A DNA stretch of 64,000 nt from contig NZ_CP042163.1 in the NCBI RefSeq assembly GCF_007725405.1, forward strand, positions 4,030,001 through 4,094,000. Direction: 5' to 3'. Under the pieces are notes generated by a model that saw only the letters and a program-made list of their open reading frames with translations, made no database searches and had not been told where the DNA came from. Position numbers and translations under genes: made by a program. Origin of the DNA: Shouchella miscanthi. Its GTDB lineage: Bacteria; Bacillota; Bacilli; Bacillales; Bacillaceae_D. This document shows positions 17,604 to 62,447 of this stretch, in pieces (the stretch's first letter is position 1; every line of letters begins with the position of its first letter).

Positions 17604-17723
17604 TTAATAACCGCCAATTGGGTGTACATATGTTTGGATATCACCATCGGCTATTGGTTGATTCGTTGATGATAATAAAGCAATAGATCCCACCAGCATC
17701 AAAGCTATTAGAAATTTTTTCAA
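17604..17723 (-). CDS. Phr signalling peptide precursor
   Basis: A 39-codon frame starts at TTG 17723, overlapping the rap stop codon (TTGA), with AGGAG ten bases upstream, and ends with TAA at 17604. It begins MKKFLIALMLVGSIALL, a typical Sec signal peptide, followed by a polar stretch and ends in DIQTYVHPIGGY. Size, signal peptide and position right after rap are those of Phr precursors, which are exported, cut to a 5-6 residue peptide, re-imported by Opp and bound by the partner Rap. The mature peptide cannot be fixed from sequence; it probably comes from the last dozen residues. Confidence 0.85.
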   Translation of the reverse strand: MKKFLIALMLVGSIALLSSTNQPIADGDIQTYVHPIGGY

Positions 17724-47005: not shown

Positions 47006-48058
47006 TTATCCTGTTATTAACCACGGTGAAGCATAGAAATCTCTTCTAAAAAGCTCACCTGATTCTGGGAAGGAAGTAGGCATTTGCCCATAAGGAATAT
47101 TGGTTGCTCGATAGCCGCCAAAGACCGTATGAGGATTAGGACGCTCTGCTAAATTTCGTAAAAACACTTCTCCATTGAATCGTACGATAGGAATAACACT
47201 TCTTTGATGAAATCCATTCCAATAGGCAGTGCCACGATCATGACGCGCAATCCAATATAAACCTTCTTCAAGTTCTTCATCAAGGGTTACATATCCCCAG
47301 CCACCGTTTGAAGAAATCTCAATATCCTCTGATTCAAAGAGTAAGTCTTTTGGTCTTCCCGTGCCATCGTCTGAATAAATCCCTACTTTTGCTGCTACTG
47401 TATTCCCTGCGCTCCCTAAGCTCATCCCTGCACGTACAACTTTTGTTTTTCTTGTAACAGGAAACGGAAACGCATCTAATGTATCTCCATAGACAAGGAT
47501 ACTAAATGCAGGTACATGACTATTCACGTTGTATCCTTCTGCTGTAAAAGGATTGTAATCTCGTCGAAAATGAGATAAATAGGTCCCTGCCGTTGGATAA
47601 AATGGCTCTACTCCCCCGCCAGCACTTGCCATAGCGTCAATTTTATCTTTTAAGTCCTCAAGGCTTTGTTTTGTTTGAAGGACATCATCCGATAGCTGAG
47701 CTGTATTGGCTACCGCTTCATAGTCTGCAGTAATGACTGAATCGGCATGTTGTTGTGCTGCAAATACTACCGCTCCATAGGCAGGATACAATTCGTACTC
47801 GCCTGCATCAATTAACGCCCCGTCACGATAAAGAACAGGCACAGGTTGGTCTAGCCAGTTTCGCTCTTCCCCTTCATAAATACGAAAGCGAAGGGTTGGG
47901 TCTGTTTGATCGCTAACTGGAATTAAAGGTGCATTGCTTCTTACAGTCGACTTCATGTTCAGAACTTGTTGAATTTTATTAATATCCTGCTGCACTCCTG
48001 ATAGATGCGCAGATAATATTGCTTCGCTTTTTAAATCCTTATAAGGCGTTTGTGCCAT
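47006..48058 (-). CDS. Putative tail receptor-binding/accessory protein
   Basis: The 350-residue product is the last gene of the tail operon, where receptor-binding or fibre proteins usually lie. It has an N-terminal helical part (residues about 1-45), a middle coiled coil (about 125-150, TKQSLEDLKDKIDAM) and a C-terminal beta-rich domain of 200 residues with repeated Tyr/Trp/Gly, as in host-binding domains. No named family is recognised. The start is ATG 48058 after AAAGGA; a GTG three codons earlier is too close to it. Confidence 0.6.
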   Translation of the reverse strand: MAQTPYKDLKSEAILSAHLSGVQQDINKIQQVLNMKSTVRSNAPLIPVSDQTDPTLRFRIYEGEERNWLDQPVPVLYRDGALIDAGEYELYPAYGAVVFAAQQHADSVITADYEAVANTAQLSDDVLQTKQSLEDLKDKIDAMASAGGGVEPFYPTAGTYLSHFRRDYNPFTAEGYNVNSHVPAFSILVYGDTLDAFPFPVTRKTKVVRAGMSLGSAGNTVAAKVGIYSDDGTGRPKDLLFESEDIEISSNGGWGYVTLDEELEEGLYWIARHDRGTAYWNGFHQRSVIPIVRFNGEVFLRNLAERPNPHTVFGGYRATNIPYGQMPTSFPESGELFRRDFYASPWLITG

Positions 48059-48082
48059 TTTTTTCACATCCTTTTTTGTTTT

Positions 48083-50932
48083 TTACGCTCGCGGTAAATA
48101 CGTAAATACCGTTGGATCTTCTTGCCCTAACGTCCACATCGCCACACCTTTACACTCCGCCTCTTCGATTAGTTGCAGTGTCGTAATAAACCCTTCAATA
48201 TCACTATTCCATGCAAGGGAATAGCCTTCGGCATCGCCAATATAAAAGTTTCTTAGCCAAACACCTGCATCCACCACACGAAGCTGAATCGTCTTAGCGC
48301 CTTCCCATGAGTCCACAACTGCAACAGTTAAATTCTCGTAGTCATTGCTTATGCCATAAGAAGTACCAGCGTCAGGGTTCAGCCCCGCATACGTCAAATA
48401 CCCAAACTCATCGTACTCATAGGGACGGTCTTCCTCTAATGCAATTGGTTGAGGTTCTCCATCTACAATCGCTTGCACCTTCTCCATAGGTTCATAACGA
48501 TTAAGCGTTGCAATATGAAGACGATGGCACCTCACTCTAGCTCCTTGTGCAAAGACGCCATGTGCGCCTTGCGCTCTGTTTCCTTGTACCCTGTGACTGA
48601 TCACTTGTGTTGTGCCATTAAAGCAAAGAATCTGCCCTTCAAAAAAACGTACCCTGAGGGAATACCTTGTACCTAAATAGATAGTAGCTGGAACAGAAGC
48701 CAACACTTGTCTTTCCCCATTTTCCTCTGATAGTAGTAGAAACTGTTGTTGGGTTGCGTCTAGTAAAAACAAGTACCCATCGTTCGTTGATCCTACATTC
48801 GATGCCATGAACCGAATGCCGGCACTTCCTCGATCCCATAATGAAAGGTCTGCTTCAAGATGAGGGAAGAAGTGTAGCCGCTTATTTAACAGCAATTGAT
48901 TTTGTCTTCCTCTGGCGTCTGTTTCGACGAAATTTTCTCGTGACGGTACCCATTCTCCAGAAGAGTAACCGACCGCTCTTCTACTAGATATACATTGCCT
49001 ATTATCATAGTTTCCACCATGCACGACCTGGGTTCCCGCTTGTAAATAATAATTCGTTTCTGCTAGATTCACTCTCTCTTGATTTCCGCTTTCATCGTAC
49101 ACAACATGAGAGCCAAATAGGTCTTCCCAAAAAATCGCAGGACGAGGGGGTCTACGCAGCAATTCAGCTGTTAAGGCCATTTTCTTAGGCATTTTAGCAT
49201 CCACTTGATTGACAATACCCTCTGTTACTGTTCCTCTTTTTTTAGGTGGCTGTAAATTCACATTGTACTCCACCATCCCACCGCTCATATTGTGAGAAAA
49301 GCCCGTACCTACAACCAAACCTAGTAGTTGTGCAGAATCTTCTGTTCCTGTAACAACGATTTCATTCTCCCCTTCTTTAAACGAGAATGTCCCACAATGG
49401 TAAAAATGTCGATCTGGGTTTACTAAGAACGGGTACCAACTTGGGATCCCTTCTCCTATCACATAAGGTGTACCGTTAACGAGCAAATGAATTTTCGGAT
49501 TCAAATAAGGGAAATAAACAGGTGCAATTAATTCATAGGTTCCTGCTGCTGGCAGTGAAAAACGATAAACCGCTCTTCCAGCGTCAACATCTTTTACACA
49601 ACGCTCCAAATCATGGTCTGCCAGATATTGAGCGCCTCCAACCGCCACTCCTTGAAACGTTTGTGGAAATTGTTCCGCACGCCAGGTCGTATTGGTTCTC
49701 GTTGCATTTCCTGTTAACTGGGTAGGTTGATGTAGAACGGCGTGTACGTGTTCAAAAGTTGCTCGCTGATGCTTACTATAGCTTGTAATATACTCTGTCC
49801 CTTGGTAGGTTGAACGATAAATAACAGGACGATTATTGTACGGTAGCAAGTGGGCATACGCCACGCGAAAGCGATCATAACAATGGGAGAATGTTTGCTG
49901 GTAGCCAGACTCTTCATCATGTAAACCTGTGTAGGGAACGTAAGATTGATCGACCCATGTAAATGCATCCGTCTCTGGATCTCGCCCAATATGGTGTTTA
50001 AAAATGCCGTTTTGCCACATAAGCATTTGCCAGTATCGAACCGCAGTACCAGATCGTTTGCTTTCAAGTGGCCAACGTCGTCCATAAGCCGCATTCCCTA
50101 TCCAAACCGATTCGGACGGAAACACATCTTGAACGTGGGCTAAGACTTGTTTTAGCCACCAAACAGGTGTGGATGGACCTGGAGCAGAATTGTTATGTGC
50201 GAAATCATAGGACATAATTTGCCATTCATCACAGATCATTTGCCCTCTTTCGTCTCTTCCTTGAGCAAGCGTACGGTAATCAGTCCATTGATACCAATAT
50301 GGCGCAAAATCACCGGTCATAGCATGCAAATTAACACGCACTTTTAATTGGAGAGGGATCGCAATTTCATTTTTCACTCGCGTTAAAAAATCTCGGTATT
50401 TCTCAGCTTCCCGAGCCTCTCTTGGCCGAGAACTCGATTTCTCAAAATCAATTTCAATTCCTTTTATCCTCCCGGGAAAACGCGTCATGTATTGAGAGAC
50501 AATCGATCGGAATTGCCGAATAAAAGTCGATTGATTTTCCTCTTGATCGAGCATGGTTTCAACAGGACTTCCAAAACAGATAGCTTGTAAAAACCATTCC
50601 ACGTTTGGATAGTGGTCCATTAAATAGAGAAGACTATTCCGTGCCCAATACTGAATGGCGCCATCTTGATTCAAAACAGGATATGATGTTCCTGCTTTAT
50701 AGTGATAAACCGTACCATTTTCGCGCACACCAAAATCATGTAGACCAAATGAAGCGATTTTTTCATTGTGTTGCTGAAACGCCGTCCAAAAGTTCCGCTG
50801 ATCACCTGGCCAATCTAAGTATGCATCGCGATTGATGATCGTCCATTCACCAGGCGCATCTTCTTTTGCAAACTCAAGAAATTGTGCGTTGGAGGGCTCG
50901 TTTAAACTCCACGACATAAACTGCATGCTCAC
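48083..50932 (-). CDS. Large tail-associated GH18-like glycosidase
   Basis: A 949-residue protein whose first 360 residues resemble a GH18 TIM barrel: the catalytic loop reads GIEIDFE (158-164), keeping the Asp162 and acid Glu164 of the DxxDxDxE motif while the first two Asp are Lys and Glu. The last 120 residues end with VAMWTLGQED (930-939), a typical final-strand GH18 motif, so the barrel appears split by a 450-residue insert of beta-sandwich type that likely binds carbohydrate. GTG 50932 overlaps the previous stop (GTGA) with GGGAGG eight bases upstream. In a tail operon it probably digests a cell-surface polysaccharide. Confidence 0.7.
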   Translation of the reverse strand: MSMQFMSWSLNEPSNAQFLEFAKEDAPGEWTIINRDAYLDWPGDQRNFWTAFQQHNEKIASFGLHDFGVRENGTVYHYKAGTSYPVLNQDGAIQYWARNSLLYLMDHYPNVEWFLQAICFGSPVETMLDQEENQSTFIRQFRSIVSQYMTRFPGRIKGIEIDFEKSSSRPREAREAEKYRDFLTRVKNEIAIPLQLKVRVNLHAMTGDFAPYWYQWTDYRTLAQGRDERGQMICDEWQIMSYDFAHNNSAPGPSTPVWWLKQVLAHVQDVFPSESVWIGNAAYGRRWPLESKRSGTAVRYWQMLMWQNGIFKHHIGRDPETDAFTWVDQSYVPYTGLHDEESGYQQTFSHCYDRFRVAYAHLLPYNNRPVIYRSTYQGTEYITSYSKHQRATFEHVHAVLHQPTQLTGNATRTNTTWRAEQFPQTFQGVAVGGAQYLADHDLERCVKDVDAGRAVYRFSLPAAGTYELIAPVYFPYLNPKIHLLVNGTPYVIGEGIPSWYPFLVNPDRHFYHCGTFSFKEGENEIVVTGTEDSAQLLGLVVGTGFSHNMSGGMVEYNVNLQPPKKRGTVTEGIVNQVDAKMPKKMALTAELLRRPPRPAIFWEDLFGSHVVYDESGNQERVNLAETNYYLQAGTQVVHGGNYDNRQCISSRRAVGYSSGEWVPSRENFVETDARGRQNQLLLNKRLHFFPHLEADLSLWDRGSAGIRFMASNVGSTNDGYLFLLDATQQQFLLLSEENGERQVLASVPATIYLGTRYSLRVRFFEGQILCFNGTTQVISHRVQGNRAQGAHGVFAQGARVRCHRLHIATLNRYEPMEKVQAIVDGEPQPIALEEDRPYEYDEFGYLTYAGLNPDAGTSYGISNDYENLTVAVVDSWEGAKTIQLRVVDAGVWLRNFYIGDAEGYSLAWNSDIEGFITTLQLIEEAECKGVAMWTLGQEDPTVFTYLPRA

Positions 50933-51774
50933 AACAACGACCTCCCTTCTTTCCAGCGTATAAGCTCAGCTATGCCATAATAGCCAATACCGACATCTTG
51001 AAGTGTGTCGATTACTTCTATTTCACCGAATTCATTCTGTTGCCGCATTTGTACAAATTTATACCATTCCAATCGAATCCTTCCTGAACCCATTGGAATA
51101 CCGAATAGTCGCTGTTTTCCTGTTTGAATGTGAATTGAACCAATTGTTAATGTCCGCGCTTTTCGGTCTAACGGAATTTCGTTTTTTGTTGCTTTATTTA
51201 GCGAGGCATGAAGATGAATGTTGTCACCCGCTCTACCACCCTGAATATAAAATTCTCTCGTATATGTTTTGTTTAATGGGTGCTCTTCTTCATTCGGAAA
51301 CGGCATTGTAAAGGCGTCTCTCTTTTCCCCTATATTTGTAGATACACGCAATAAATCAAAATCATCTTTTGGGATCAGTGTTAAATCAACAGGTGTTACA
51401 AACGTTTGTCGATCAAATCGTTTTTCGTCAAGATTGGGAATCGTGATAATCTCGTTTCCACGACCTACTAGATTGTAAAAGCGATTTTTTAACTCAGGGA
51501 ACCTTCTCGGTTGATCACCTTTTACAAGCAAAGGTTCAGCAACGCCTTCAGTTGAATCTCGTTCATCCAACTCTCTTAACACCGGAGACAGCCACTCACT
51601 CGTGTGAGCCACTGTCCCTGTCACCTGTTCACCGCCCTGAAGCTGTAGATCAGTTATATTTAATTGCCCGCTGATCTTTTCAGCGATTACATGAAGATCC
51701 ACTTGTTTCACTTTTTTCGTTTGATCTTTCTGTATTGGTTGTGCAACGAAGCGAGACCAGTCTAACTTACTCAT
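50929..51774 (-). CDS. Tail structural protein (281 residues)
   Basis: No named family is recognised. The protein is soluble and beta-rich. Residues 30-65 (ISGQLNITDLQLQGG..TGTVAHTSEW) resemble most of the small protein encoded just before it, suggesting duplication. The start is ATG 51774, whose ATGAGTAA overlap with the upstream stop means translational coupling; a longer frame to 51843 overlaps the upstream gene entirely. Position between the tail endopeptidase and the glycosidase suggests a baseplate role. Confidence 0.6.
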   Translation of the reverse strand: MSKLDWSRFVAQPIQKDQTKKVKQVDLHVIAEKISGQLNITDLQLQGGEQVTGTVAHTSEWLSPVLRELDERDSTEGVAEPLLVKGDQPRRFPELKNRFYNLVGRGNEIITIPNLDEKRFDRQTFVTPVDLTLIPKDDFDLLRVSTNIGEKRDAFTMPFPNEEEHPLNKTYTREFYIQGGRAGDNIHLHASLNKATKNEIPLDRKARTLTIGSIHIQTGKQRLFGIPMGSGRIRLEWYKFVQMRQQNEFGEIEVIDTLQDVGIGYYGIAELIRWKEGRSLL

Positions 51775-51952
51775 TAGACCAGCGATGCTCACTTGGATGG
51801 CCTGTCCAGTTGGTACTTGTCGTGCCACCTTGCAACATGGCATCGGTTATTGAAGCTTGCCCTGAAAAGTTGGACGCTACAAACCGTACCTCTACCTCAG
51901 AAACCGACTTTGACGAGTCGGTTTCAACCAAAACTGACTTTGCAGAAAACAT
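51767..51952 (-). CDS. Small tail protein (61 residues)
   Basis: A 61-residue product starting MFSAKSVLVETDSSKS, with GGGAGG seven bases before ATG 51952. Its middle, FSGQASITDAMLQGG..TGHPSEHRW, resembles residues 30-65 of the next protein. The stop codon overlaps the next start. It is probably a baseplate or connector component in the tail operon. Confidence 0.6.
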   Translation of the reverse strand: MFSAKSVLVETDSSKSVSEVEVRFVASNFSGQASITDAMLQGGTTSTNWTGHPSEHRWSNE

Positions 51953-51983
51953 ACGCACCCCTCCCTTCGTCTTGAATAAAACA

Positions 51984-53477
51984 TTAGGTTAACGATATAA
52001 AGGTCGGTTCTTCTTCTGTACCATCTTCATAACGAACGATCACTTCCACACCGACCCTACCGTCTTCATTCACAGCAAAATTTTGGACTGCACTACGAAA
52101 AGAGAGAACATAATGGTCACGATTTGCCGGATAGACGGTTTGACTTAAACGTTTTACACCTGAAGTCGTTTCTGCTTTAAACGATGCGCTACCGCTAAAA
52201 CCATTAACTGGATCCACTTCCCATCCACTATTCGACCAATAGCGAAAACCGTCATCTGCTCTGCTGTTGAGCAATAAGTTAAATACAGAAAGCTCTAGCA
52301 TATCGCTTGAATCAATCGTATCTTCTGATCGCAAGAAACTTGTCCCATCTTGTACGCCTGTAAGCAGGTCAGAAAGTGTAGGTGCCTTAGATTCTAGTAC
52401 AATCTCTGTCTCCCAAGGTTCAACTAGGTTATAGCGCCAAGCGAGAATGCGCGTTTGCCGATCAATACCAAGCTCTTTATCGTACACTCTGACAAGATCG
52501 CCAAGTTTAAATTGTTCATGTTCCATTCCTGATAATATCGATAAATCGGATGCTTTAATTTGATAGGATGTACGCGGTAAACTAAGGTTTTCCAATGCAG
52601 CTTGCGCTTGCTCTTTTAAATGAAATGGATTCGTAAACCGGTCATCCTTTAGCACCTTTGCTCGCAGTTTCGTCGTGAATGTGTAGTTGGGATCGTCTCG
52701 AATATCTAAATAGGGAACTTGGTCATTCACTGAATCAATGGAAAGATTCTCTCTCCCATAAGGATACAGTCGTGTAATGAGTTCATCTGTATCATACGTA
52801 GCTTCAATCGATTGGATGTTCTTCTCATAGACAATAGCTGCTCCAGATATTCGACCAATCGGTTCAATGAAATCAATGGTCATCGTATCGGAGTGGTAGA
52901 CTAATTCGCCCCCATACACATCTGGTAATTGTGTTAACGCCTGCAGCCTGTTCGTTAGTCCAGATTCAACACTAACGTTACGTGTAGGAAAATTTGAAAC
53001 GACCCCTAGCCGCCAATCTGTTCCTTGCAAGATATCCGACAAAACCACAACAACACTCTTGTCTTCCCATTCTGAAACAGATAAAGGGTCGGAAAATTGC
53101 AAATCATACCAAAGTGCTTCAGCAAACACTTCTGTTTCAGGAACACCACTTCCTCCGCGACTATACGTAATGCGTCGAATGATATAAAGCTCATCAACAA
53201 TTTGAATTAAATGTTCATTTTGCAAGTGCTCGTTTTTTTGGTCAGAGAAAGGCAAGACAAACGAAAGTGTATCGATACCGTTAACTTCCTGTTCAAGCAA
53301 AATATCATAGGCATTATCTAACACAGCTAGCTGCTCTCTTTCAGGTGAAAGAACGACTGGCCGAGCCCCTGGTAAACGGGAGAAAATGGCTCTCTGCATT
53401 CGACTGTAAGAATGGTTATAAAAAACCGTATGCAACTGGTTATACTGGGATTCATTCACATTATTATATTGAATCAT
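51984..53477 (-). CDS. Tail-associated protein (Tal/prophage endopeptidase-like)
   Basis: This 497-residue protein follows Dit and matches the layout of siphophage minor structural proteins (Gp37-like/prophage tail endopeptidase): an N-terminal hub region with LEQEVNGIDTLSFVLPF and YIIRRITYSRG, a gp27-like middle, and a C-terminal carbohydrate-binding-like domain from about 385. It would form the tip hub of the tail. GGGTGG precedes the ATG. Confidence 0.75.
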   Translation of the reverse strand: MIQYNNVNESQYNQLHTVFYNHSYSRMQRAIFSRLPGARPVVLSPEREQLAVLDNAYDILLEQEVNGIDTLSFVLPFSDQKNEHLQNEHLIQIVDELYIIRRITYSRGGSGVPETEVFAEALWYDLQFSDPLSVSEWEDKSVVVVLSDILQGTDWRLGVVSNFPTRNVSVESGLTNRLQALTQLPDVYGGELVYHSDTMTIDFIEPIGRISGAAIVYEKNIQSIEATYDTDELITRLYPYGRENLSIDSVNDQVPYLDIRDDPNYTFTTKLRAKVLKDDRFTNPFHLKEQAQAALENLSLPRTSYQIKASDLSILSGMEHEQFKLGDLVRVYDKELGIDRQTRILAWRYNLVEPWETEIVLESKAPTLSDLLTGVQDGTSFLRSEDTIDSSDMLELSVFNLLLNSRADDGFRYWSNSGWEVDPVNGFSGSASFKAETTSGVKRLSQTVYPANRDHYVLSFRSAVQNFAVNEDGRVGVEVIVRYEDGTEEEPTFISLT

Positions 53478-53486
53478 ACAACCACC

Positions 53487-54236
53487 CTATACCCAGCGAC
53501 TTCTTGCTTGTATTGTTAGTTCTTCCACTTCACCAGTTCCTTCAAATGCAAGAGATAATTGATTCGCACCAGGTTGTAAAACAGGAAATTCAATACTATT
53601 TAAATGGTTCAGTGCTGATACTCGTTCACCATTCGGCTTTACTGTATACGCCGTCACATATTGGCTATCCAAACGTAACTGCTCCCCTGATTCAAGTGTT
53701 CCATCGTAGACCATTTCCGTGTCGTTAAGAGTTAGTCGAATGAAACCGTTTTGTAACTGCCCTTTTACTTGTATTAAAGGAAATGAATGAATACTGCCTT
53801 TTTCTCTTGTGAAATGATGGGTTCCTTCTGAATGGTAGATAAAAAATTCATCTTCAATCGCATAATAATAAGGATCTGGACAATAGAAGATTAAATCGCC
53901 TCTACCCGAAGCTGCTAATTCGTCTAACTCTGATTCTTCTGCCAAAAGCCCGTATATCACCTTGTCTCGTTCATCATGAAAAATAAGAGGCTTAGGCTCA
54001 GCACGATTGAGTAAACGCGCAATCTCCCTTACCTTTTCACGAAAATCCGAACGATTTGCACCAGCAATTGTAACCGAAATGGTAATCATCAACGCTGCAT
54101 CTTGTTTTCCGAAAAAAAAGGAGCCATTTCTTCCGAATATAGACATGGAACGAATTTCGCGAGCTGGCAAAATAGGCCTTTGAATGTGATGAACGATTAA
54201 AGATTGACTAAAATCAAATCCGTCATACGTGAACAT
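53487..54236 (-). CDS. Distal tail protein (Dit)
   Basis: A 249-residue Dit-family protein: MFTYDGFDFSQSLIVHHI at the start, the family motif GRNGSFFFGKQ near 35-45, the N-terminal ring domain, and the C-terminal galectin-like domain with FYCPDPYYYAIEDE. Dit forms the ring between tail tube and tip. It lies one base after the tape measure gene with AAAGGAGG upstream. Confidence 0.82.
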   Translation of the reverse strand: MFTYDGFDFSQSLIVHHIQRPILPAREIRSMSIFGRNGSFFFGKQDAALMITISVTIAGANRSDFREKVREIARLLNRAEPKPLIFHDERDKVIYGLLAEESELDELAASGRGDLIFYCPDPYYYAIEDEFFIYHSEGTHHFTREKGSIHSFPLIQVKGQLQNGFIRLTLNDTEMVYDGTLESGEQLRLDSQYVTAYTVKPNGERVSALNHLNSIEFPVLQPGANQLSLAFEGTGEVEELTIQARSRWV

Positions 54237-54237
54237 A

Positions 54238-56022
54238 TTATCGGCCTCCTTTTGCTCTCATCGTAGACACATGTCTCCGACCAAGTTCTGTGTCCATAAA
54301 TGGAGCTGTAATTCTTGCAATTTGTTTTCCTTCTAGGTGTACCGGAACCTCGACAGTTAACCGATCTTGTAAAGAGGATCGACTCAGAAAATCTGGCTGT
54401 TGACGGGCCATTAAATGTTGTTCTAACCGGTCAACTCCACGACCTAAGAAATTCCCCCCTTGAATCGTAGGCAACGACAACGCATTCGTTAACGCCCGCT
54501 CAATAACAGGTAAGTCCCCTTCTACAGAGTCTTTAATCGGCCCTCCGAAATTTAAGCGGTGAATGTCTTGCAGTGGCCCTTCCTTTGCTGGAGAAAACGG
54601 GAGAAAATCACGAATCTTTCCTGCCACATTTGAAATGGCACTCGTGACCGACCCAATTGCACTGGTAATACCTTGAGCAATACTTGTGACGATGTTACGG
54701 CCTGCATCTCGGAACCGACCGATAAAGCCCATAACCGTTTGGAATGCACGTTGAATGCCATTTGAGATTGCGCTTCGTATCGCTGTCATGGCTGTCGTTA
54801 CACTCGTACGAACTGCATTAAAAATGGACAGAAAGGTCGTTCTAATTGCATTAAGACCCGCTGACACTGCAGAGCTTGCAGCCGAAATACCTGTTGTAAT
54901 GAAGTTTCGAATAAACGAAATAACTGACGTCACGACTGAGCGAACTGCATTGAATACCGTCATGAAGATCGTTCGAATCGTGTTTAAGATTGTCGTGACA
55001 ACCGTTTGAACAGCTGTCATCCCAGTCGATATAAGATTCCGTATAAATGTCATTACGGTTGTAACAACTAATCGAATAGCATTGAATTGCTCTTGGAAGT
55101 ATGATTGGATACCTACTAAAGCTGTCAAGAAAAGTGTCGATATCCATGTCCACATGCTTTTAAACACACCTTGCAAACTTTTAAATAACGTACTGGCTAC
55201 CTTTACAATTTTCCCAATTAGTACGAGCTGCACTAAATTCCAAATCGCTTCTAACGCACCGAAGAATAATTGTTTTATCCCTTCCCACATTAAGGAGAAA
55301 TCCCCCGTAAATAAGCCAGCAAAGGTTTTAATTAATCCCATAATGATGTCGAGTGCACCAGAGATTACGCCTTTAATATTTCCCCACACTTGCTGAATCA
55401 ACGCAGCCACAAACGGCCACACAAACTTCATTAAGGCTAAAATCCCGTTCATAATAGGCTCAATAATACTGAGTATAAAGTTAAATACATTTGAAACAGC
55501 TTCCATGACTTGTGCGCCATGCTCATCCCAAAACTGCTTAATTGTCGCCAGTTTTTCAGCTACAAATGAAGCAATCACGCTAACGACCGTTTGAATAACA
55601 GACTGAATCGTCTGCCACACTTGAATGACGCCGTTTTTAAATGTTTCATTCGTATTCCATAGATACATGAAGCCTGCTGCAAGAGCGGCAATGGCGGCGG
55701 TGACTGCAAGGACTGGCCCTATAAAAGAGGCTACAGATGTTCCTAAAGTTATAAAGGCAACCTTTATAAAGTCAATGACTGCTTTAAAACTTGTAAAAGC
55801 TTCCTTTACTGCCACAATACTTAATAATAATCCACCAAAACCTGTCAAAAGACTAGCCAAGAATCCTCCCCAATCAGCCTCTCCTATTTTTTGAGTAATT
55901 GTTCCAAAGGACTCTGCAATTTTAGTTAAATTCTTTTGTAAATCTTCTAAAGCCTTACCATGTTTTTTAACGTCATCAAAGTCTAGTGTTAAGCCTGCAG
56001 ATTGTCCAATTTGAACTGCCAT
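54238..56022 (-). CDS. Tail tape measure protein
   Basis: A 594-residue tape measure protein: short N-terminal helix, several hydrophobic stretches (about 60-125), and a long helical part with repeated units of type FNAVRSVVTSVISFIRN and SAVSAGLNAIRT between about 310 and 440. By the usual rule of about 0.15 nm per residue the tail would be short, near 90 nm. ATG 56022 overlaps the stop of the frameshifted tail chaperone (TAATG) with GGAAAGGAGG upstream. Confidence 0.85.
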   Translation of the reverse strand: MAVQIGQSAGLTLDFDDVKKHGKALEDLQKNLTKIAESFGTITQKIGEADWGGFLASLLTGFGGLLLSIVAVKEAFTSFKAVIDFIKVAFITLGTSVASFIGPVLAVTAAIAALAAGFMYLWNTNETFKNGVIQVWQTIQSVIQTVVSVIASFVAEKLATIKQFWDEHGAQVMEAVSNVFNFILSIIEPIMNGILALMKFVWPFVAALIQQVWGNIKGVISGALDIIMGLIKTFAGLFTGDFSLMWEGIKQLFFGALEAIWNLVQLVLIGKIVKVASTLFKSLQGVFKSMWTWISTLFLTALVGIQSYFQEQFNAIRLVVTTVMTFIRNLISTGMTAVQTVVTTILNTIRTIFMTVFNAVRSVVTSVISFIRNFITTGISAASSAVSAGLNAIRTTFLSIFNAVRTSVTTAMTAIRSAISNGIQRAFQTVMGFIGRFRDAGRNIVTSIAQGITSAIGSVTSAISNVAGKIRDFLPFSPAKEGPLQDIHRLNFGGPIKDSVEGDLPVIERALTNALSLPTIQGGNFLGRGVDRLEQHLMARQQPDFLSRSSLQDRLTVEVPVHLEGKQIARITAPFMDTELGRRHVSTMRAKGGR

Positions 56023-56707
56023 TATATTCCTCCTTTCCATTTTTTCGATTCTTCATTCATTTTGTCTTGATCCCATTCAGCCATGCTTCGATTCTTTTTA
56101 TCTTGTAAGAACCGTTGAAATGCACTATCTTCAGGTAATCCTCTAACAAACACTAAGAACCGTCTCCATGAGAGACGGTTCTCAAATCCCTCTTGAGTTA
56201 AATGAATGCGATAAAACCTGTAAAAGTCAGCCTCTAATGCGGCCCACCCCCAAATAATTATCCGTGAATCTTGGTTTTTTTTTGTGTTTTTGATGATTGA
56301 GCACTTGTACCTTTAACGTCATAACCCCATAGTTTCATAATGTCTGGAACGATATGTTGAAACACAAAATTCACTCCAGCTTTTGATTGTTCTAAGTGGC
56401 TGAGAAAAGCTTTTCCTAGCATTAGTTCAATAAACTCATACATCTTTTCTTCTGGTACCGACATTTGTGTTTTTCCTTTTACCTTCTGCACACAATGTCG
56501 GAAATAGAAGGTAGCAAATTGGAAAGGCATTTCAGTTGGAATCTCAAAATACTCACCAGCAAATTTGACGTATTGATGCTTTTGTTCATTTAACTGTTCA
56601 GCCAGTGCATCGTCATAGTCAGCTACTAATTGCTCTTGTTGGATTTCCGCTAGCTCTTCCACCTTTTGATCTAGAAGTTCTAAACGTTCTTCTCTATTAT
56701 TCGCCAC
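56022..56707 (-). CDS. Tail assembly chaperone gpGT, made by -1 frameshift
   Basis: A -1 slip at the A9 run near 56275-56283 would join the first 144 residues of the chaperone gpG to a further 84 residues in the -1 frame, ending at TAA 56022-56024. That second frame, starting NQDSRIIIWGWAALEADFYR, has no start of its own near its beginning but is coding-like, with W/R/F-rich helices (NRLSWRRFLVFVRG). A shifted chaperone before the tape measure gene is one of the most conserved traits of long-tailed phages. The G:GT ratio sets tail assembly. Confidence 0.8.
56258..56707 (-). CDS. Tail assembly chaperone gpG
   Basis: The unshifted product is about 149 residues, helical and acidic at first (EERLELLDQKVEELAEIQQEQ), and ends right after the slippery run with TKIHG. 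A GTG at 56707 is taken as start because it sits 10-12 bases after GGAGGAG; the longer frame to 56716 starts inside that site. It overlaps the end of the tail tube gene. Confidence 0.75.
   Translation of the reverse strand: MANNREERLELLDQKVEELAEIQQEQLVADYDDALAEQLNEQKHQYVKFAGEYFEIPTEMPFQFATFYFRHCVQKVKGKTQMSVPEEKMYEFIELMLGKAFLSHLEQSKAGVNFVFQHIVPDIMKLWGYDVKGTSAQSSKTQKKTKIHG
56275..56283 (-). other. -1 ribosomal frameshift site
   Basis: Minus-strand sequence CAC-A9-CC; in the gpG frame it reads CAA AAA AAA ACC, so the heptamer A AAA AAA is in the right phase for a -1 slip. Nine A in a row also fits known tail-chaperone slip sites. Confidence 0.75.
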
Positions 56708-57125
56708 CAGGAGCACTCTCCTCCGTAATCGCTTCTTTTGTATTTACACGGAATTCGCCTGAAAAAGTATATACCCCCTCAGACACTGAACCCTCTTCTT
56801 CATAGGTAGTAAAAAATCCAGTAAGCGCATAGCCTGAACCAGTAGAGTCAGTGTGCTTAATAACCGCTTCTTGACCTAGTTCCGAGACGCGTTTTAATTC
56901 CGATTGTCCATCATCATCTAGAAGAGCAATCCCTTCCATTGATACGGTTTCACCTACAGACGCGGCAATAAATTTTTGACGAAAAACGCCCCCACCATCA
57001 ACCGTGTCACCTAAACCGGTCACATCCGCTTCTTCAACTTCTAGTGAATGTGTAAAGGACGTTAGCTTTGCCACCACTTGTTCATTTACTTCTACTCGTG
57101 TTCCTGCAAACTTCTTTTCAGCCAT
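56697..57125 (-). CDS. Major tail (tube) protein
   Basis: A 142-residue phage tail tube protein: FAGTRVEVNEQVVAKLTSFT, then EVEEADVTGLGD and a C-terminal beta-strand region YTFSGEFRVNT. Size, order and the Gly-rich middle fit siphophage major tail proteins. It is the first gene of the operon, with GGAGGAG before the ATG, and it is preceded by the leader and SOS box region. Confidence 0.75.
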   Translation of the reverse strand: MAEKKFAGTRVEVNEQVVAKLTSFTHSLEVEEADVTGLGDTVDGGGVFRQKFIAASVGETVSMEGIALLDDDGQSELKRVSELGQEAVIKHTDSTGSGYALTGFFTTYEEEGSVSEGVYTFSGEFRVNTKEAITEESAPGGE

Positions 57126-57153
57126 GTTAACTCCTCCATAATAAGTGAAATAC

Positions 57154-57200
57154 TATTCGTTATTGTTGGTGTGCCGGCACGAACGTATATTTAACGAATA
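57154..57200 (-). other. Inverted repeats in the tail operon leader
   Basis: TATTCGTTA (57154-57162) pairs with TAACGAATA (57192-57200), enclosing the palindrome GTGCCGGCAC (57171-57180). On the minus strand this lies 30 bases before the first tail gene and could form an RNA structure or an operator. Confidence 0.4.
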
Positions 57201-57246
57201 ATGTAGCTAGATACTAGATGTTTTGCTACAACTCTACTTTAATATA

Positions 57247-57260
57247 AGAACACACGTTCT
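57247..57260. promoter_or_regulatory. LexA (SOS) box between the tail operon and a DUF4429 gene
   Basis: AGAACACACGTTCT contains the full GAAC-N4-GTTC core of the Bacillus LexA site (CGAACRNRYGTTYC) with matching inner bases R-N-R-Y. On the minus strand it lies just before a -10-like TATATT for the tail operon. Confidence 0.6.
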
Positions 57261-57264
57261 GTTT

Positions 57265-57291
57265 TGCCGATTTTCTGCCACGTTTATGCCA
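57265..57291. promoter_or_regulatory. Three 11-bp-spaced direct repeats
   Basis: TGCC(A/G) occurs at 57265, 57276 and 57287, exactly one helical turn apart, each within TT-N-TGCC-type units. Right behind the LexA box and before the tail promoter they look like tandem activator sites, perhaps for the ArpU-type protein. Confidence 0.45.
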
Positions 57292-57342: not shown

Positions 57343-58203
57343 ATGTCACAAACTTTTAAAGGCTCTCGATCGACCCTAACCATTGAGGACGACAAACTAA
57401 TTATTAAACACAATAAAATAAAAAGCTTAGGTGGTGGCGCTCGAAAAGAGATCGTTATTCCCTTTAATGAGCTCGAAAATGTTATCATTAGAAAACCAGG
57501 AATTGTTTCAGGATTTTGTTATCTTCAACGCAAAGGTGCCTCTCCAGATATATCAAGATTTCAAGCAACAAACGATGAATTCTCTATAGTACTTACTTTT
57601 TCTTACCATTACAAACGATTTTTAAAAGCAAAGAAACTTATTGAGACCAAATTAGAAAACGTTGACACCGCTTCAGAGTCAGAGCTTGATCGTATTTACC
57701 ACGCTCTTATTTCGGATCCAGATCAGTCTATTAAATTTGCTGGCTATAATGGAAGCTTAGAAATTACAAGAGACAACGTTACAATTTTATACAATGGATT
57801 TCTTCATAGTGGCGGCCGCGGTCAGAAAACCATTCACATAAAAGAAATTAATAGTATATCAATATCGAGAGAAGCCATCGTTAGCGGGAAAATTCAGCTT
57901 CACTACAATGGGTTTCAAGATAGAAGGAATGGAATACTTGCTTCTGCAGCAAATGAACTAAGTATTACAAACATTAACGAGTACAATCGTTTCTTACAGG
58001 CAAAAGAACTTATTGAACGGATTAAACATTACCATGACTCATATAATGAAACTGGTTATGACAATAGCTACAACCAATATGCCGAACCTGTGCATACTCC
58101 CCGCTCTACCGCAGACGAACTTCGAGAGTTTAAATCGCTTTTAGACGAAGGTATTATTACGGAAGAAGAATTTGAACAAAAGAAAGCGCAGTTACTTCGC
58201 TAA
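57343..58203 (+). CDS. DUF4429-SHOCT protein, copy 1
   Basis: This 286-residue protein has two PH-like DUF4429 domains (about 1-110 and 130-225; SLGGGARKEIVIPFNELENV in the first) and a C-terminal SHOCT domain (STADELREFKSLLDEGII..EEFEQKKAQLLR). It is not a standard phage protein and its function is unknown. It is divergent from the tail operon and shares its intergenic SOS box. A paralogue lies at 60199-61080. Confidence 0.75.
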   Translation: MSQTFKGSRSTLTIEDDKLIIKHNKIKSLGGGARKEIVIPFNELENVIIRKPGIVSGFCYLQRKGASPDISRFQATNDEFSIVLTFSYHYKRFLKAKKLIETKLENVDTASESELDRIYHALISDPDQSIKFAGYNGSLEITRDNVTILYNGFLHSGGRGQKTIHIKEINSISISREAIVSGKIQLHYNGFQDRRNGILASAANELSITNINEYNRFLQAKELIERIKHYHDSYNETGYDNSYNQYAEPVHTPRSTADELREFKSLLDEGIITEEEFEQKKAQLLR

Positions 58204-58487: not shown

Positions 58488-58559
58488 TTTCCTACGTTTA
58501 GTCAATAGGGTTTTTATAATAATTCTGATGATGTTATTTTTAAATCTAGGCATAGGAAA

Positions 58560-60030
58560 TAAACCTTATCCCTGTCTATTTTTAAATAAGGTTCCTATGG
58601 TATACTACAGTTATTGGTCCATTGAGACCGCGTGCGAGTAATCGTACTCTGTATGATTCCTAGCCATGGAATACATACACTTTATGAGCTTGTTCATACA
58701 AGCGACAACGGCAACCTTGTCCTTCTTGGGGGTAGGTTGCTTTTTTAATTTGTAATAATACTCGACAATATGATTAGGAGCTGCTTTCTGCTGGCGGATC
58801 ATGTTCCGAATGATGAGATATAAAATCTTTCTCCCTTTGGGATTTCCACGTTTATTAATATGGTCTTGTCCATGATATTTGCCAGATTGATATCTGCGGA
58901 TATCAATTCCCACGAAGGCGTTCACTTTTTTGTGATTTGAGAAGCGGGACAGATCACCAAGTTCCCCCATCACAAGAGCTGCACTAATTTCTCCAATACC
59001 AGGTACGCTAAGAAATAAATCAAACTCAGGAAGGTTTTTGGCCTCCTCGATCAGTTCTTTAGATACGCGTTCTTTTTCTTCTAAAAGATGAAGAAGCTGA
59101 CGCGCATAGTATCGTACCTTTTGAGTTTGAACACTCTCTGTAGAGACGGCTGGGTAAGAAGAGTGAGCGTAGCTCATGATCTCGACTGCTTTCTGTTTTG
59201 CGCGATTCTGTGAAATGTTTTTTAACGTATGATTGATGAGCTGATTTTTAATTTTTGTGATACTCGACCTTAAAACAAGATCGGGATGAGGAAAGAGCGC
59301 AATCAGACTTAAAGCGTAAGGTGTAATTCGACTCGAGAAAAATTGTTCAAGCTCTGGGAAACTAAGCTGGAGTGCATTGTGTAGATACATACGCATCCGT
59401 TTAATTTCCTCTTCAATCTCTTGATAAAAACGCGAGAGGTCACGCAGATGTTGATAGATGATGGATTGCGTTTGATTTTCCTCTCTTCTGTGAAGGGAAT
59501 GAGACTGAGCTAATAAGTGGGCATCGTGTTTGTCGGTTTTCCAGCTTCTGAGTGTCCCTTGCTCAAGCTGTTTTTTAGCCTCTAACGGATTAAGAATACA
59601 GTAACGTAAAGCATTCCTTTGGCAAAACGTCTCCACTGGTTTAGAATAAATCCCTGTGGCTTCAAAGACAACGGTCACACTACCTGGAAGGGTCTGAATG
59701 TGATCGAATAGCTGTTGAAATCCTAGTTGATTATGAGCAATTTCTTCTTCGTACAAACATCTTTGGTCTTGATAAATGACCGAGTAACTTTTCCCCATTG
59801 ATACATCTAAAGCGACTACAAACTCCATCATTGTTCCTCTTTTCATTTAGCATTGAAAGGTCTTCACTTAATCATTCCGATTCTAATTTCCTCTACACGA
59901 GCTCAATGGCCCCAACATACTTAAACCTGATTCAGTAATGAAAGTGAAGAAGCTCGGTTTTTAATACGGATTCTAGATCCTTGAGGCTTAGGTCGAGCTT
60001 TCTTTCACCTCTCACTATACGCCTAAACGA
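58560..60030 (-). mobile_element. IS110-family insertion sequence (approximate ends)
   Basis: The element consists of the transposase gene, a 5' non-coding part of roughly 190 bases and a short 3' end. IS110 elements often lack clear inverted repeats and target duplications, so the limits given are estimates. Confidence 0.55.
58611..59846 (-). CDS. IS110-family DEDD transposase
   Basis: A 411-residue recombinase: N-terminal RuvC-like DEDD domain with ALDVSMGKSY, FEATGIYSKP and KTDKHDAHLLAQSHS, a central coiled coil, and the C-terminal Tnp20-type domain with LSVPGIGEISAALVMGELGD and FVGIDIRRYQSGKYHG. It looks complete, so the element may be active. In this family the transposase is guided by a bridge RNA encoded in the non-coding end. 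It sits between two DUF4429-SHOCT paralogues. Confidence 0.9.
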   Translation of the reverse strand: MKRGTMMEFVVALDVSMGKSYSVIYQDQRCLYEEEIAHNQLGFQQLFDHIQTLPGSVTVVFEATGIYSKPVETFCQRNALRYCILNPLEAKKQLEQGTLRSWKTDKHDAHLLAQSHSLHRREENQTQSIIYQHLRDLSRFYQEIEEEIKRMRMYLHNALQLSFPELEQFFSSRITPYALSLIALFPHPDLVLRSSITKIKNQLINHTLKNISQNRAKQKAVEIMSYAHSSYPAVSTESVQTQKVRYYARQLLHLLEEKERVSKELIEEAKNLPEFDLFLSVPGIGEISAALVMGELGDLSRFSNHKKVNAFVGIDIRRYQSGKYHGQDHINKRGNPKGRKILYLIIRNMIRQQKAAPNHIVEYYYKLKKQPTPKKDKVAVVACMNKLIKCMYSMARNHTEYDYSHAVSMDQ

Positions 60031-60035
60031 AAAAT
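59870..60035 (-). ncRNA. Candidate IS110 bridge RNA
   Basis: The stretch upstream of the transposase can fold: arms around GTGAAGAAGCTCG (59944-59956) and CGAGCTTTCTTTCAC (59994-60008) enclose a 37-base loop. Known IS110-group bridge RNAs are encoded at this place and have stems with large internal loops that pair with target and donor. Placement and limits are inferred. Confidence 0.4.
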
Positions 60036-60072
60036 AGTGGGTAAGATTCATCCGTCGATGATCTTACCCACT
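60036..60072 (-). terminator. Hairpin/terminator at the IS110 left side
   Basis: Arms AGTGGGTAAGATTCATC and GATGATCTTACCCACT pair with one bulge; on the minus strand ATTTTTCG follows. It would stop read-through from the flank into the transposase. Confidence 0.65.
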
Positions 60073-60198
60073 AATCTTAGTATGTTTTTTACAACAAGTG
60101 TCGAGATGTATTCAAACGCTCTACAGCCTCGTCTTTAAGAGGTTATACTATGTTAAACTACTCTAAACAATCATTTTATTGAGAAAGGACGACTCTTC

Positions 60199-61080
60199 AT
60201 GCCACACGTTTTTAAGGGAGCTCGATCGACTGTTACCGTTCATGATGACAAACTCATAATAAGGCACGGACGATTCAAGACGTTTGGCGGTGGTGCTCGA
60301 AAAGAGGTTATTCTGCCTCTTAATGAACTTGAAGATATGGTTTTTGAGAAGCCCGGTTTTTTTCCTGGTTTTTGCTATTTTCGACGTCTAGGAGCTTCAC
60401 CAAATCGAACGCGGCTTGAAGCAGCGAGTGATGAGTATACGGTTATGCTTCATTCTTCACAACATTATGTGCAACTTCAACAAGCAAAAAAACTCATTGA
60501 TGATAAACAAGCACACATTGAGCCTGCAACAGAGCTTGAAGTTGATCGCATGTTTGATCGTATCGTTATGGACTCCTCTCATTCCGTTGCTTTCGATGGT
60601 ATGTATGCTTCATTAGAATTAACTATGGAGACTGTCACCATTTCCTATAAACGCTTGCTTCCTTCTGGTAAGCCAAACACTACGATAATTTCTATATCGA
60701 CTATCGATTCCATTACATTATCAACTGACAATGCAGGAAACGGGCTTTTTCAAATTCATCACGATAGTCAGTCTTCAAGCAGTTTACATACAGGTACTAC
60801 AGAATTAAGTGAATTTCGTATTGGTAACATTAATGAATCTACTCGCTTCTCAAAAGCTAAAGAACTAATGGAACGACTAAACGTTCATTATAAAGCCAAT
60901 CATAAAATACGTTACGATCCAAACGTTGACACAAATGAAAGAAAGTATATAAATTATCCAAGATCTCCACTCACTCCCCGCTCTACCGCTGATGAACTTC
61001 GCGAGTTTAAAGCCCTTTTAGACGAGGGCATTATTACAGAAGAAGAGTTTGAACAGAAGAAAGCCCAGTTACTTCGCTAA
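60199..61080 (+). CDS. DUF4429-SHOCT protein, copy 2
   Basis: A 293-residue paralogue of the 57343-58203 product: MPHVFKGARSTVTVHDDKLI, two PH-like domains, and a SHOCT tail that is almost identical in the two copies (TPRSTADELREFK.LLDEGI). The upstream sequences are alike too (CTATGTTAAACT and GAAAGGACGA.TCTTCATG), so the pair arose by duplication, with the IS element and repeat now in between. Function unknown. Confidence 0.75.
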   Translation: MPHVFKGARSTVTVHDDKLIIRHGRFKTFGGGARKEVILPLNELEDMVFEKPGFFPGFCYFRRLGASPNRTRLEAASDEYTVMLHSSQHYVQLQQAKKLIDDKQAHIEPATELEVDRMFDRIVMDSSHSVAFDGMYASLELTMETVTISYKRLLPSGKPNTTIISISTIDSITLSTDNAGNGLFQIHHDSQSSSSLHTGTTELSEFRIGNINESTRFSKAKELMERLNVHYKANHKIRYDPNVDTNERKYINYPRSPLTPRSTADELREFKALLDEGIITEEEFEQKKAQLLR

Positions 61081-61119: not shown

Positions 61120-61512
61120 TCACACGATGTAACCAGCTACGCCCATTAAATAATGAAGTTTCGCTAATGCTTTTGTTTTCAACCTGTAATACTGCCTCTC
61201 ACTAATCATCATTTCCATGTATACTTGATAATCAAAACGGTCCTCTTCTAAGTAACGTCGAACGATTAATTCTCTTTCTACTTCGGAAAGTCGGTTAATA
61301 CATTCCTGGATAACATCCAAAAATGCTTGACGTTCTGTTTGTTCTTGCTTCATTTCATCTTCTTGCTGCGTGAAAAAAGGTTTGCTACTCCCTGTTGAAA
61401 GTAGCGTGTACTGTGCAGTCACTTTTGGCATTTCGTCGTATGCAAGCGTAAGCTTATCTAAGTTATATTGTGCTAGCACTTGTTCTACTTTCTGCTTCTC
61501 TTCCTTTTGCAA
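61120..61512 (-). CDS. ArpU-family phage transcriptional regulator
   Basis: A 130-residue protein with a C-terminal sigma-region-4-like helix-turn-helix (ELIVRRYLEEDRFDYQVYMEMMISERQYYRLK). ArpU-type proteins act late in Gram-positive phage cycles to activate structural gene transcription. The start is TTG 61512, six bases after GGGGGG; the frame extends to 61536. It is transcribed in the tail direction but separated from the tail operon by the IS element and DUF4429 genes. Confidence 0.7.
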   Translation of the reverse strand: MQKEEKQKVEQVLAQYNLDKLTLAYDEMPKVTAQYTLLSTGSSKPFFTQQEDEMKQEQTERQAFLDVIQECINRLSEVERELIVRRYLEEDRFDYQVYMEMMISERQYYRLKTKALAKLHYLMGVAGYIV

Positions 61513-61560
61513 CGCAAGCCCCCCTTTACTTAGCAAAGAGAACCAATTCGTTAAAAATCA

Positions 61561-61592
61561 AAAAAGACGAAGTCATCACCTCGTCTTTTTTT
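61561..61592 (-). terminator. Terminator of the amidase gene
   Basis: Stem AAAAAGACGA/TCGTCTTTTT followed by T-run on the minus strand. Confidence 0.8.
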
Positions 61593-62362
61593 TAACTACT
61601 TATCACAACCGCATCATATCCACGCCCACGCAGTTCATTCGCCAATGCATCCGCATTTGCTCTCACAGAAAAAGCACCTGCCTGTACAAGGAAAAGAGAA
61701 CCACTTTGGACAATAATGGATTCATATCCATCTGCACGTAAGCGAGCCTGCTGTTGATCAGCATTGGCACGAACCGAAAACGCACCAACTTGAACACGAT
61801 ATATGGTGCCACCACCACCGCCGCTTCGCTGTAAATTAAACGCTTGCGCCAATCCGTTGACATGGCCTCTTGCTACACGATCCAAGAACGCTGGACTTCT
61901 TAACAAGTCTGCATCTGCAGCTCGATCAATAAATAGGTTTTCTGTTAATATCGCAGGCATAGTAGACGTGCGTAATACTGCGAAGTTGGCTCTTTTTTGG
62001 CCTCGGTTCGTCACGTTTAGTTGCTGCATAATCGCTGGATGGACAATCCCCTGTATACGTGCTGTTTCAGCCCCTGCATTCGTATGAATAAAGGACTCAA
62101 ATCCTGTTCCACCACCTGCATTAATGTGAATAGACATAAAGTAGTTCGCATTCCAAGCATTTGCCTGCTGGGTACGATCACTTAAACTGACAAACACATC
62201 GCTTGTTCGACTCATACGCACTTCTACACCTTGATACTCACTTAGTAAAATGTCGCGAATACGCGTGGCTATTGAAAGGTTTAACGTCTTTTCCTGTAGG
62301 CCATTCCCTACTGCACCTGGGTCACTTCCACCATGTCCTGGATCTAAAAATATTCTTGTCAT
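61592..62362 (-). CDS. N-acetylmuramoyl-L-alanine amidase with two SPOR repeats
   Basis: A 256-residue zinc amidase: Amidase_3 domain with the first His and Glu ligands in FLDPGHGGSDPGA and LQEKTLNLS, SIHINAGG for the second His, and the catalytic Glu in ILTENLFIDRA. A Gly-rich linker leads to two near-identical SPOR repeats (RVQVGAFSVRANAD and LVQAGAFSVRANAD), which bind denuded peptidoglycan. ATG 62362 follows GGGGG; the longer frame to 62425 lacks one. No signal peptide is seen, so it fits a phage endolysin or CwlC-type mother-cell amidase. Confidence 0.85.
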   Translation of the reverse strand: MTRIFLDPGHGGSDPGAVGNGLQEKTLNLSIATRIRDILLSEYQGVEVRMSRTSDVFVSLSDRTQQANAWNANYFMSIHINAGGGTGFESFIHTNAGAETARIQGIVHPAIMQQLNVTNRGQKRANFAVLRTSTMPAILTENLFIDRAADADLLRSPAFLDRVARGHVNGLAQAFNLQRSGGGGGTIYRVQVGAFSVRANADQQQARLRADGYESIIVQSGSLFLVQAGAFSVRANADALANELRGRGYDAVVISS

Positions 62363-62415
62363 TTGTACATCCCCCTTATCAATTAGGTGCTCGTCCACAT
62401 TCTCACTCGAATTGC

Positions 62416-62447
62416 GAAAAAGCATGCAGCGCTATACGCCACATGCT
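62416..62447 (-). terminator. Terminator after the malic enzyme gene
   Basis: Arms AGCATG-GCG-C and GCG-CATGCT pair around TATA; TTTTTCG follows on the minus strand. Confidence 0.7.

Follow-up and report, generated by a model that had tools for sequence, protein, structure and literature searches.

What does a bacterial chromosome hold when it carries a phage tail and no head? The question is raised by a 64,000-nucleotide stretch of the 4.25-Mb chromosome of Shouchella miscanthi, a relative of alkaliphilic Bacillus species (positions 4,030,001–4,094,000, hereafter the window), in which nine co-directional genes on the minus strand (47006–57125), all with open frames, form an intact siphophage-type tail operon. 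From first to last, these encode the tube, a frameshifted chaperone, the tape measure, Dit, Tal, two small tip proteins, a GH18-domain protein, and a binding protein (Table 1). A first-pass annotation had listed this operon and proposed a monocin-like killing particle or another tail-derived device, with a decayed prophage as the alternative; every listed gene proved to be present and open, and the tailocin proposal gained support from the headless state of 10 loci, from purifying selection, and from a tube and chaperone without counterpart in the phage records searched, while phages sharing the tip do have heads. We consider the locus best explained, at a probability of about 0.74, as a chromosomal SOS-controlled F-type tailocin-like system (non-contractile tail-like particles) of Shouchella, judging from the gene set, the lack of visible head genes, conservation, selection, promoter anatomy, and tip replacement.

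Profile matches are strong for Tal, Dit, the tape measure, and the GH18 tail protein. For the tube and chaperone, support comes from gene position, from a slippery site for −1 frameshifting that is conserved, and from a predicted structure that looks tube-like at moderate confidence; the slippery site and its −1 extension of the open reading frame (ORF) are kept in 10 of 10 loci. A Foldseek search with the tube model placed the monocin tube among its better matches (8qhs and 9j1j; E values of 0.0055–0.016), and the tube profile gave no sequence match to the monocin chains in the PDB. Neither tube nor chaperone matched any of 50,697 phage records at an E value of 0.01; Tal, by contrast, has relatives in 271 of these records, all below 60% identity. 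Some starts differ from those first annotated: the tape measure probably begins at 56022 (594 a.a.), an ORF read as 304 a.a. probably begins at 51774 (281 a.a.), and the frameshift coordinates have been corrected to those in Table 1.

Capsid, portal, terminase, protease, integrase, and sheath genes all went unrecognised in a Pfam scan of the main window ORFs, in agreement with the first-pass annotation, leaving the window without the integrase, terminase, portal, and capsid of a complete temperate prophage. A contractile sheath gene was not recognised in the cassette by Pfam or phrog profiles, consistent with a non-contractile tail. The sole packaging-like hit in the window, a TerL_nuclease match of 25.4 bits, was dismissed as its ORF is a clear 2-hydroxyacid dehydrogenase. 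The remaining main ORFs look cellular, save two PH/SHOCT genes, an IS110 transposase, an ArpU-type regulator, and an amidase.

The tube gene occurs in 10 of 41 family genomes, one copy each, namely 9 of the 13 Shouchella genomes and Halalkalibacterium halodurans; in an order-wide sample, 4 of 397 genomes matched. A genome of the same species (G030) matches the cassette over 20 kb at 99.1% DNA identity and has no IS110 insertion; in S. oshimensis DSM 18940 (G032), the match extends over 19 kb at 92.4% and the flanks are shared. In H. halodurans DSM 497 (G027), the cassette appears as matching pieces (66–77% DNA identity) at a different chromosomal place, following gyrA (identified from its translation) and a gene with an HD domain, with a DUF4429/SHOCT gene divergent from the tube; no head genes were seen on this 42-kb contig, which ends 540 bases after the cassette. 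Six sister loci, reached via searches with the ArpU and PH/SHOCT proteins (genomes G029, G033, G034, G036, G038, and G039), have the same tube, chaperone, and tape measure, a different Dit, and a Tal of 1338–1877 a.a. where the frame is whole; Pfam places carbohydrate-binding and S74 domains in both of the Tal proteins scanned. The 16–31 kb around each sister locus, mostly read from translations, showed no head genes, and the flanks in G029 comprise, by Pfam, a transposase, a nitroreductase, a malic enzyme, a transporter, and two-component genes. Gene order in relatives, a comparison that had been recommended at the outset, thus revealed no head genes beside the tail genes in 10 related loci, our own included.

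Against S. oshimensis, the ratio of nonsynonymous to synonymous substitution rates (dN/dS) lies between 0 and 0.16 for all nine cassette genes, the tape measure being highest, compared with 0.018–0.087 for four upstream flanking genes and 0.020 for the malic enzyme. At a larger distance (our genome, G000, vs. G038), the tube gives a dN/dS of 0.022 with the synonymous divergence (dS) near-saturated. The window tail genes are intact and under purifying selection, two properties that the first-pass annotation had proposed to check. Judged from the sequences, the host lineage keeps the locus as a functional unit, given these dN/dS values and its occurrence in H. halodurans and in 9 of the 13 Shouchella genomes, yet it is deleted in one genome of the genus, G037.

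The relationships of the cassette change along its length. Compared with the six sister loci, the tube stays close (Table 1), the chaperone shares 82–85% and the tape measure 46–62% identity (best segment; partial in G036), whereas Tal drops to 24–28% (all six) and Dit to 22–26% (the four with a match). Compared with Geobacillus phage GBK2, Dit shares 43%, Tal 51%, the GH18 protein 40%, and the tape measure 26% identity, and the tube and chaperone give no hit (the tube reaches ~25% when the alignment is forced). The window's tip, from Dit to the binding protein, is of the GBK2 type, and the six sister loci have the same core with a different tip. Given a core similar to that in the sister loci but a tip similar to that of GBK2, we conclude that a constant tail core carries exchangeable tips.

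The phages that share this tip are GBK2 and the prophages in Siminovitchia thermophila (L063) and genome G051, with Tal at 49–51%, Dit at 39–43%, the GH18 protein at 37–54%, and the binding protein at 32–54% identity, together with the small tip proteins. They differ from the window locus in being complete or complete-looking phages with head genes (as annotated for GBK2 and as judged from the translations for the prophages), and the window's tube and chaperone find no hit there. In GBK2, GR1, Siminovitchia, and G051, the gene for a binding-protein homologue is found between those for Dit and Tal; in the window, S. oshimensis, and H. halodurans, the binding-protein gene comes last. At an E value of 1e-30, the GH18 protein matches 6 of the 397 order-wide genomes, comprising four tail-only loci and two prophage-like regions. 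Divergence between the two same-species genomes is patchy, with a dS of 0.20 in the tape measure (54238–56022), 0.28–0.33 in ArpU/amidase (61120–62425), and <0.06 in most tip genes; against S. oshimensis, ArpU/amidase shows a dS of 0.02–0.05. The patchy divergence of the tape measure and ArpU/amidase suggests recombination between species.

Upstream of the tube lie, in order, three direct repeats, a LexA-type box, a −10-like TATATT (TATTAT in sister loci), and a GTGCCGGCAC palindrome. The box, already placed before the operon by the first-pass annotation, is present, and its core is kept in 10 of 11 upstream sequences, of which two are the same locus and others are close relatives, the single miss being H. 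halodurans. The case for the box rests on this position and conservation, compared with a core in 10–18 of 4000 single-base shuffles per sequence. The core does not vary among nine Shouchella loci or in the G037 relict, six versions of the inner four bases occur, and the 300-bp upstream regions of different types share 56–59% overall identity. A box with the same core lies in the genome's own lexA promoter, and the GAAC-N4-GTTC core occurs twice in the window, the second time at 39706. The repeat pattern was found at the tail promoter in five of the five genomes searched, where the repeat-pair pattern gave 28 matches (six at the tail promoter) vs. 7 in the reversed control; the third repeat is degenerate in type-B loci. 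The same 12-base box, GAACGTGTGTTC, was also observed elsewhere in the genome (G000:C1:3390013, L053), between two divergent genes, one of them Rap-type-like.

Table 1. Features of the tail locus and its surroundings in the window, with supporting evidence.
Feature	Position	Strand	Evidence
Major tail tube protein	56697–57125	−	First operon gene; 89–93% identity to tube of six sister loci; weak phrog_158 match; tube-like model
Tail assembly chaperone	56022–56716	−	Frame 0 at 56258–56716, −1 extension to 56022; A9 slip run at 56275–56283; phrog_6959 (E 0.0025); site in 10/10 loci
Tape measure protein, 594 a.a.	54238–56022	−	phrog_58 (E 5e-59)
Distal tail protein Dit	53487–54236	−	PF05709 (E 8.7e-19); 43% to phage GBK2
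Tal, tail tip protein	51984–53477	−	PF06605 (E 2.9e-69); 51% to phage GBK2
Small tip protein, 61–63 a.a.	51767–51958	−	phrog_3473 (E 1.3e-15)
Tip protein, 281 a.a.	50929–51774	−	phrog_12827, tail protein (E 5.5e-35)
GH18-domain tail protein, 949 a.a.	48083–50932	−	PF00704 (E 1.4e-12); phrog_3432, minor tail protein (E 7.2e-147); GIEIDFE motif
Terminal binding protein, 353 a.a.	47006–48067	−	50–54% to full-prophage proteins, there between Dit and Tal
Palindrome GTGCCGGCAC in leader	57171–57180		10/11 upstream sequences by eye; missing in H. halodurans
−10-like TATATT directly after operator	57241–57246	−	Sequence inspection; TATTAT in sister loci
LexA-type operator AGAACGTGTGTTCT	57247–57260		Core invariant in 10/11 upstream sequences and G037 relict; same core in own lexA promoter
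Three GGCAnAA-type direct repeats, 11-bp spacing, possible activator site	57262–57290	−	2 overlapping pattern matches vs. 0.04 expected in window
Divergent PH/SHOCT-type gene	57343–58203	+	SHOCT PF09851; relative beside each tube-bearing locus
IS110-type insertion between the two PH/SHOCT genes	58490–60085		Transposase at 58611–59846 (−); PF01548, PF02371; absent in same-species G030
Second PH/SHOCT-type gene	60199–61080	+	SHOCT PF09851
ArpU-family regulator, candidate activator	61120–61536	−	TIGR01637, 74.4 bits (cut-off 43.1); phrog_248 (E 2.2e-21)
Amidase_3 + SPOR enzyme, candidate release enzyme	61592–62425	−	PF01520, PF05036; 72–74% to amidase ending five sister clusters

Beyond the operon, the IS110 element, the two PH/SHOCT genes, and the ArpU-type regulator are additions to the first description of the locus, which had suggested the amidase as a possible means of release and had remarked on the lack of a holin. 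The amidase is orthologous to the one that ends five sister clusters (Table 1), which suggests that release is kept in another arrangement. The missing holin is real at the window locus, though four sister loci (G029, G034, G038, and G039) have one: there, Tal is followed by a small protein, a holin adjoining the amidase (the holin family being tested in G029 only), and the Amidase_3-SPOR enzyme. In G033, the amidase is present and a holin was not recognised. PH/SHOCT-type genes stand beside the tail loci in one to three tandem copies, the window and S. oshimensis copies sharing 73% identity, and evolve faster than their neighbours (dN/dS of 0.24 and 0.29); an immunity or regulatory role for them would be a guess.

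The GH18 domain in the tip and the lack of an obvious holin would also fit a tail-derived device with a non-killing purpose, such as delivery of a protein or enzyme to other cells or action on the producer's own wall, and the fast-evolving PH/SHOCT genes alongside have no known tailocin role. We hold this to be quite improbable, as related phages commonly carry GH18 tail proteins (phrog_3432), no gene for a cargo or effector was recognised, holin and amidase occur together in sister loci, and an SOS box fits lytic release.

Several observations weigh against the tailocin reading. The tube and chaperone are weakly recognised by profile (E values of 0.012 for phrog_158 and 0.0025 for phrog_6959), and a second structural look at the tube was not specific. 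The dN/dS values of zero for these two genes mean little alone, since they stem from just 3 and 1 synonymous changes vs. S. oshimensis. A stricter box pattern was no commoner genome-wide than its reversed control (6 and 4 matches by strand vs. 9 and 6), so that within one genome the box is weak evidence, and H. halodurans retains the direct repeats and lacks the box. ArpU relatives occur in 19 and PH/SHOCT hits in 16 of the 41 family genomes, some without a tube (for PH/SHOCT, including the tube-less G040), and these links are therefore not exclusive. The tube is missing from 3 of 13 genus genomes (G031, G035, and G040), with no scar in G040, the one inspected, and G036 (an assembly 86% complete) has several broken frames, including those of cellular genes, its stretch ending before any amidase. 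The main oddities of the locus are a missing terminator gene, none being recognised at any of the loci, and the missing local holin, none being found at the window locus.

The first-pass annotation had also named decayed tail genes in related strains as a refuting sign, and as far as the comparison went the tailocin reading was not refuted: the window genes are intact. Counting against that reading, one tip gene is split into two frames in H. halodurans, and the cassette is deleted in G037. In the latter, between the same flanks, the positions matching 47303 and 57119 are fused at a six-base overlap with ~9.8 kb missing; the relict retains the promoter region, repeats and LexA core (GAACGTATGTTC) included, together with the last 98 residues of the binding protein, and the neighbouring PH/SHOCT match carries a stop. 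The cassette is therefore older than the split from G037, and dispensable. Such a deletion relict, the split gene, the terminator and local holin not found, and the close relation of the tip to complete-phage tips would be in keeping with a remnant of an ordinary prophage that lost its head half, has been kept by chance, and is decaying. We nevertheless regard a decaying remnant as unlikely, given that the same headless set is found at two chromosomal places in two genera over 10 loci, that its genes are under purifying selection with the frameshift site and operator core conserved, and that its tube lineage has no match in the phage records searched.

A further alternative is that the locus serves as a satellite or helper module, either providing tails for another phage element of the genome or taking heads from it. 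The genome does contain further phage-like regions (Tal-like and amidase hits near 1.31, 3.30, and 3.62 Mb), one with a holin homologue, and a missing terminator could be borrowed. Even so, none of the loci showed a recognisable connector or packaging gene (whole genomes not being searched for orphan head modules), the tube is without a phage relative in the records searched, and we rate this possibility as very slight, below the others considered here.

Within the tailocin reading, the binding of LexA and ArpU, assembly, release, and killing are what we infer. LexA would keep the promoter shut, bound to its site in the promoter spacer; once DNA damage inactivates LexA, the ArpU-type activator, probably acting on the three direct repeats, would drive the single operon. 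The tube, frameshifted chaperone, and tape measure would build the tail, with a predicted length of ~90 nm for a tape measure of 594 a.a., tails following a rule of about 0.15 nm per residue. Dit, Tal, the GH18 protein, and the binding protein would form a tip that recognises, and perhaps digests, the target surface. The Amidase_3-SPOR enzyme may help to lyse the producer, and the freed particles would kill related bacteria via envelope opening.

Among known phage-derived elements, PBSX of Bacillus subtilis has heads and a contractile tail, whereas no head or sheath gene was recognised at the window locus. DUF3168, for its part, is a tail-terminator family. PBSX resembles the locus in being a chromosomal phage-derived element; it has a sigma-like factor, Xpf (PMC4243946), and the ArpU regulator may have a similar function here. 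Rhizoviticin, an F-type tailocin of Allorhizobium vitis, is headless, non-contractile, and SOS-dependent (PMC10811719), a likeness read here from genes, with the SOS link predicted; it keeps an integrase and early phage regulators and needs the gene for a DUF3168 protein (same source), whereas neither an integrase nor a DUF3168 gene was recognised at the window locus.

The closest comparison is the Listeria monocin (ftb/mon locus), according to two reports (PMC7076858, PMC6872733) likewise a chromosomal siphophage-type tail-only locus that is SOS-linked and kept through most of a genus; here, the likeness is seen at the gene level, with the SOS link predicted. Monocin has a switch of a cI-like repressor and the metalloprotease MpaR, and a holin-lysin cassette at its end (same reports). 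At the window locus, the tail promoter instead carries a LexA-type box; an ArpU regulator and PH/SHOCT genes are nearby, along with an amidase that lacks a neighbouring holin. No helix-turn-helix (HTH) repressor or M78 peptidase was found among the scanned window ORFs, and the cluster ends with the binding protein, the next gene being a major facilitator superfamily transporter, in place of a terminal holin-lysin cassette. Because the repressor-protease pair and this cassette are not in the locus, it is not a monocin by membership, though by analogy it would work in the manner of F-type tailocins, probably under the control of host LexA and an ArpU activator in place of the monocin pair. In H. 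halodurans, an ArpU-like protein (36%) and amidase (62%) lie away from the cassette (L087, 5020–9072), next to an HTH gene and a gene for an M78 peptidase of the ImmA/IrrE type, a pair that recalls the monocin switch.

Two side observations may be recorded. A different genus of the family harbours another phage-tail-like cluster (L104; G016, contig C77) with HTH, peptidase-like, and ArpU-like genes, perhaps PBSX-like (from translations only), and the window contains a RapH-type aspartate phosphatase gene (17720–18820; PF18801).

Tailocins are mostly R-type, with F-pyocin and monocin named as exceptions and rhizoviticin called a rare F-type example, in a 2024 report (PMC10811719). No published report of the Shouchella tail locus was found in an open-literature search, including for Shouchella tailocin and Bacillus clausii phage tail. 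We tentatively put forward, at slightly less than even odds, a more specific picture: a tail core without a known phage relative may have been domesticated genus-wide under direct LexA control, with whole phage-captured tips swapped as a block (Dit to the receptor-binding end) and particles finished without a dedicated terminator gene, making it a re-aimable weapon chassis distinct from monocins. Genus-wide loci in easily grown bacteria would add an independent F-type lineage with a regulatory anatomy legible from sequence, and would show tailocin retargeting via exchange of an entire tip. They would also open to experiment the questions of how a siphophage-type tail is finished off when no terminator gene is recognised and how a phage-derived promoter passed under host LexA control.

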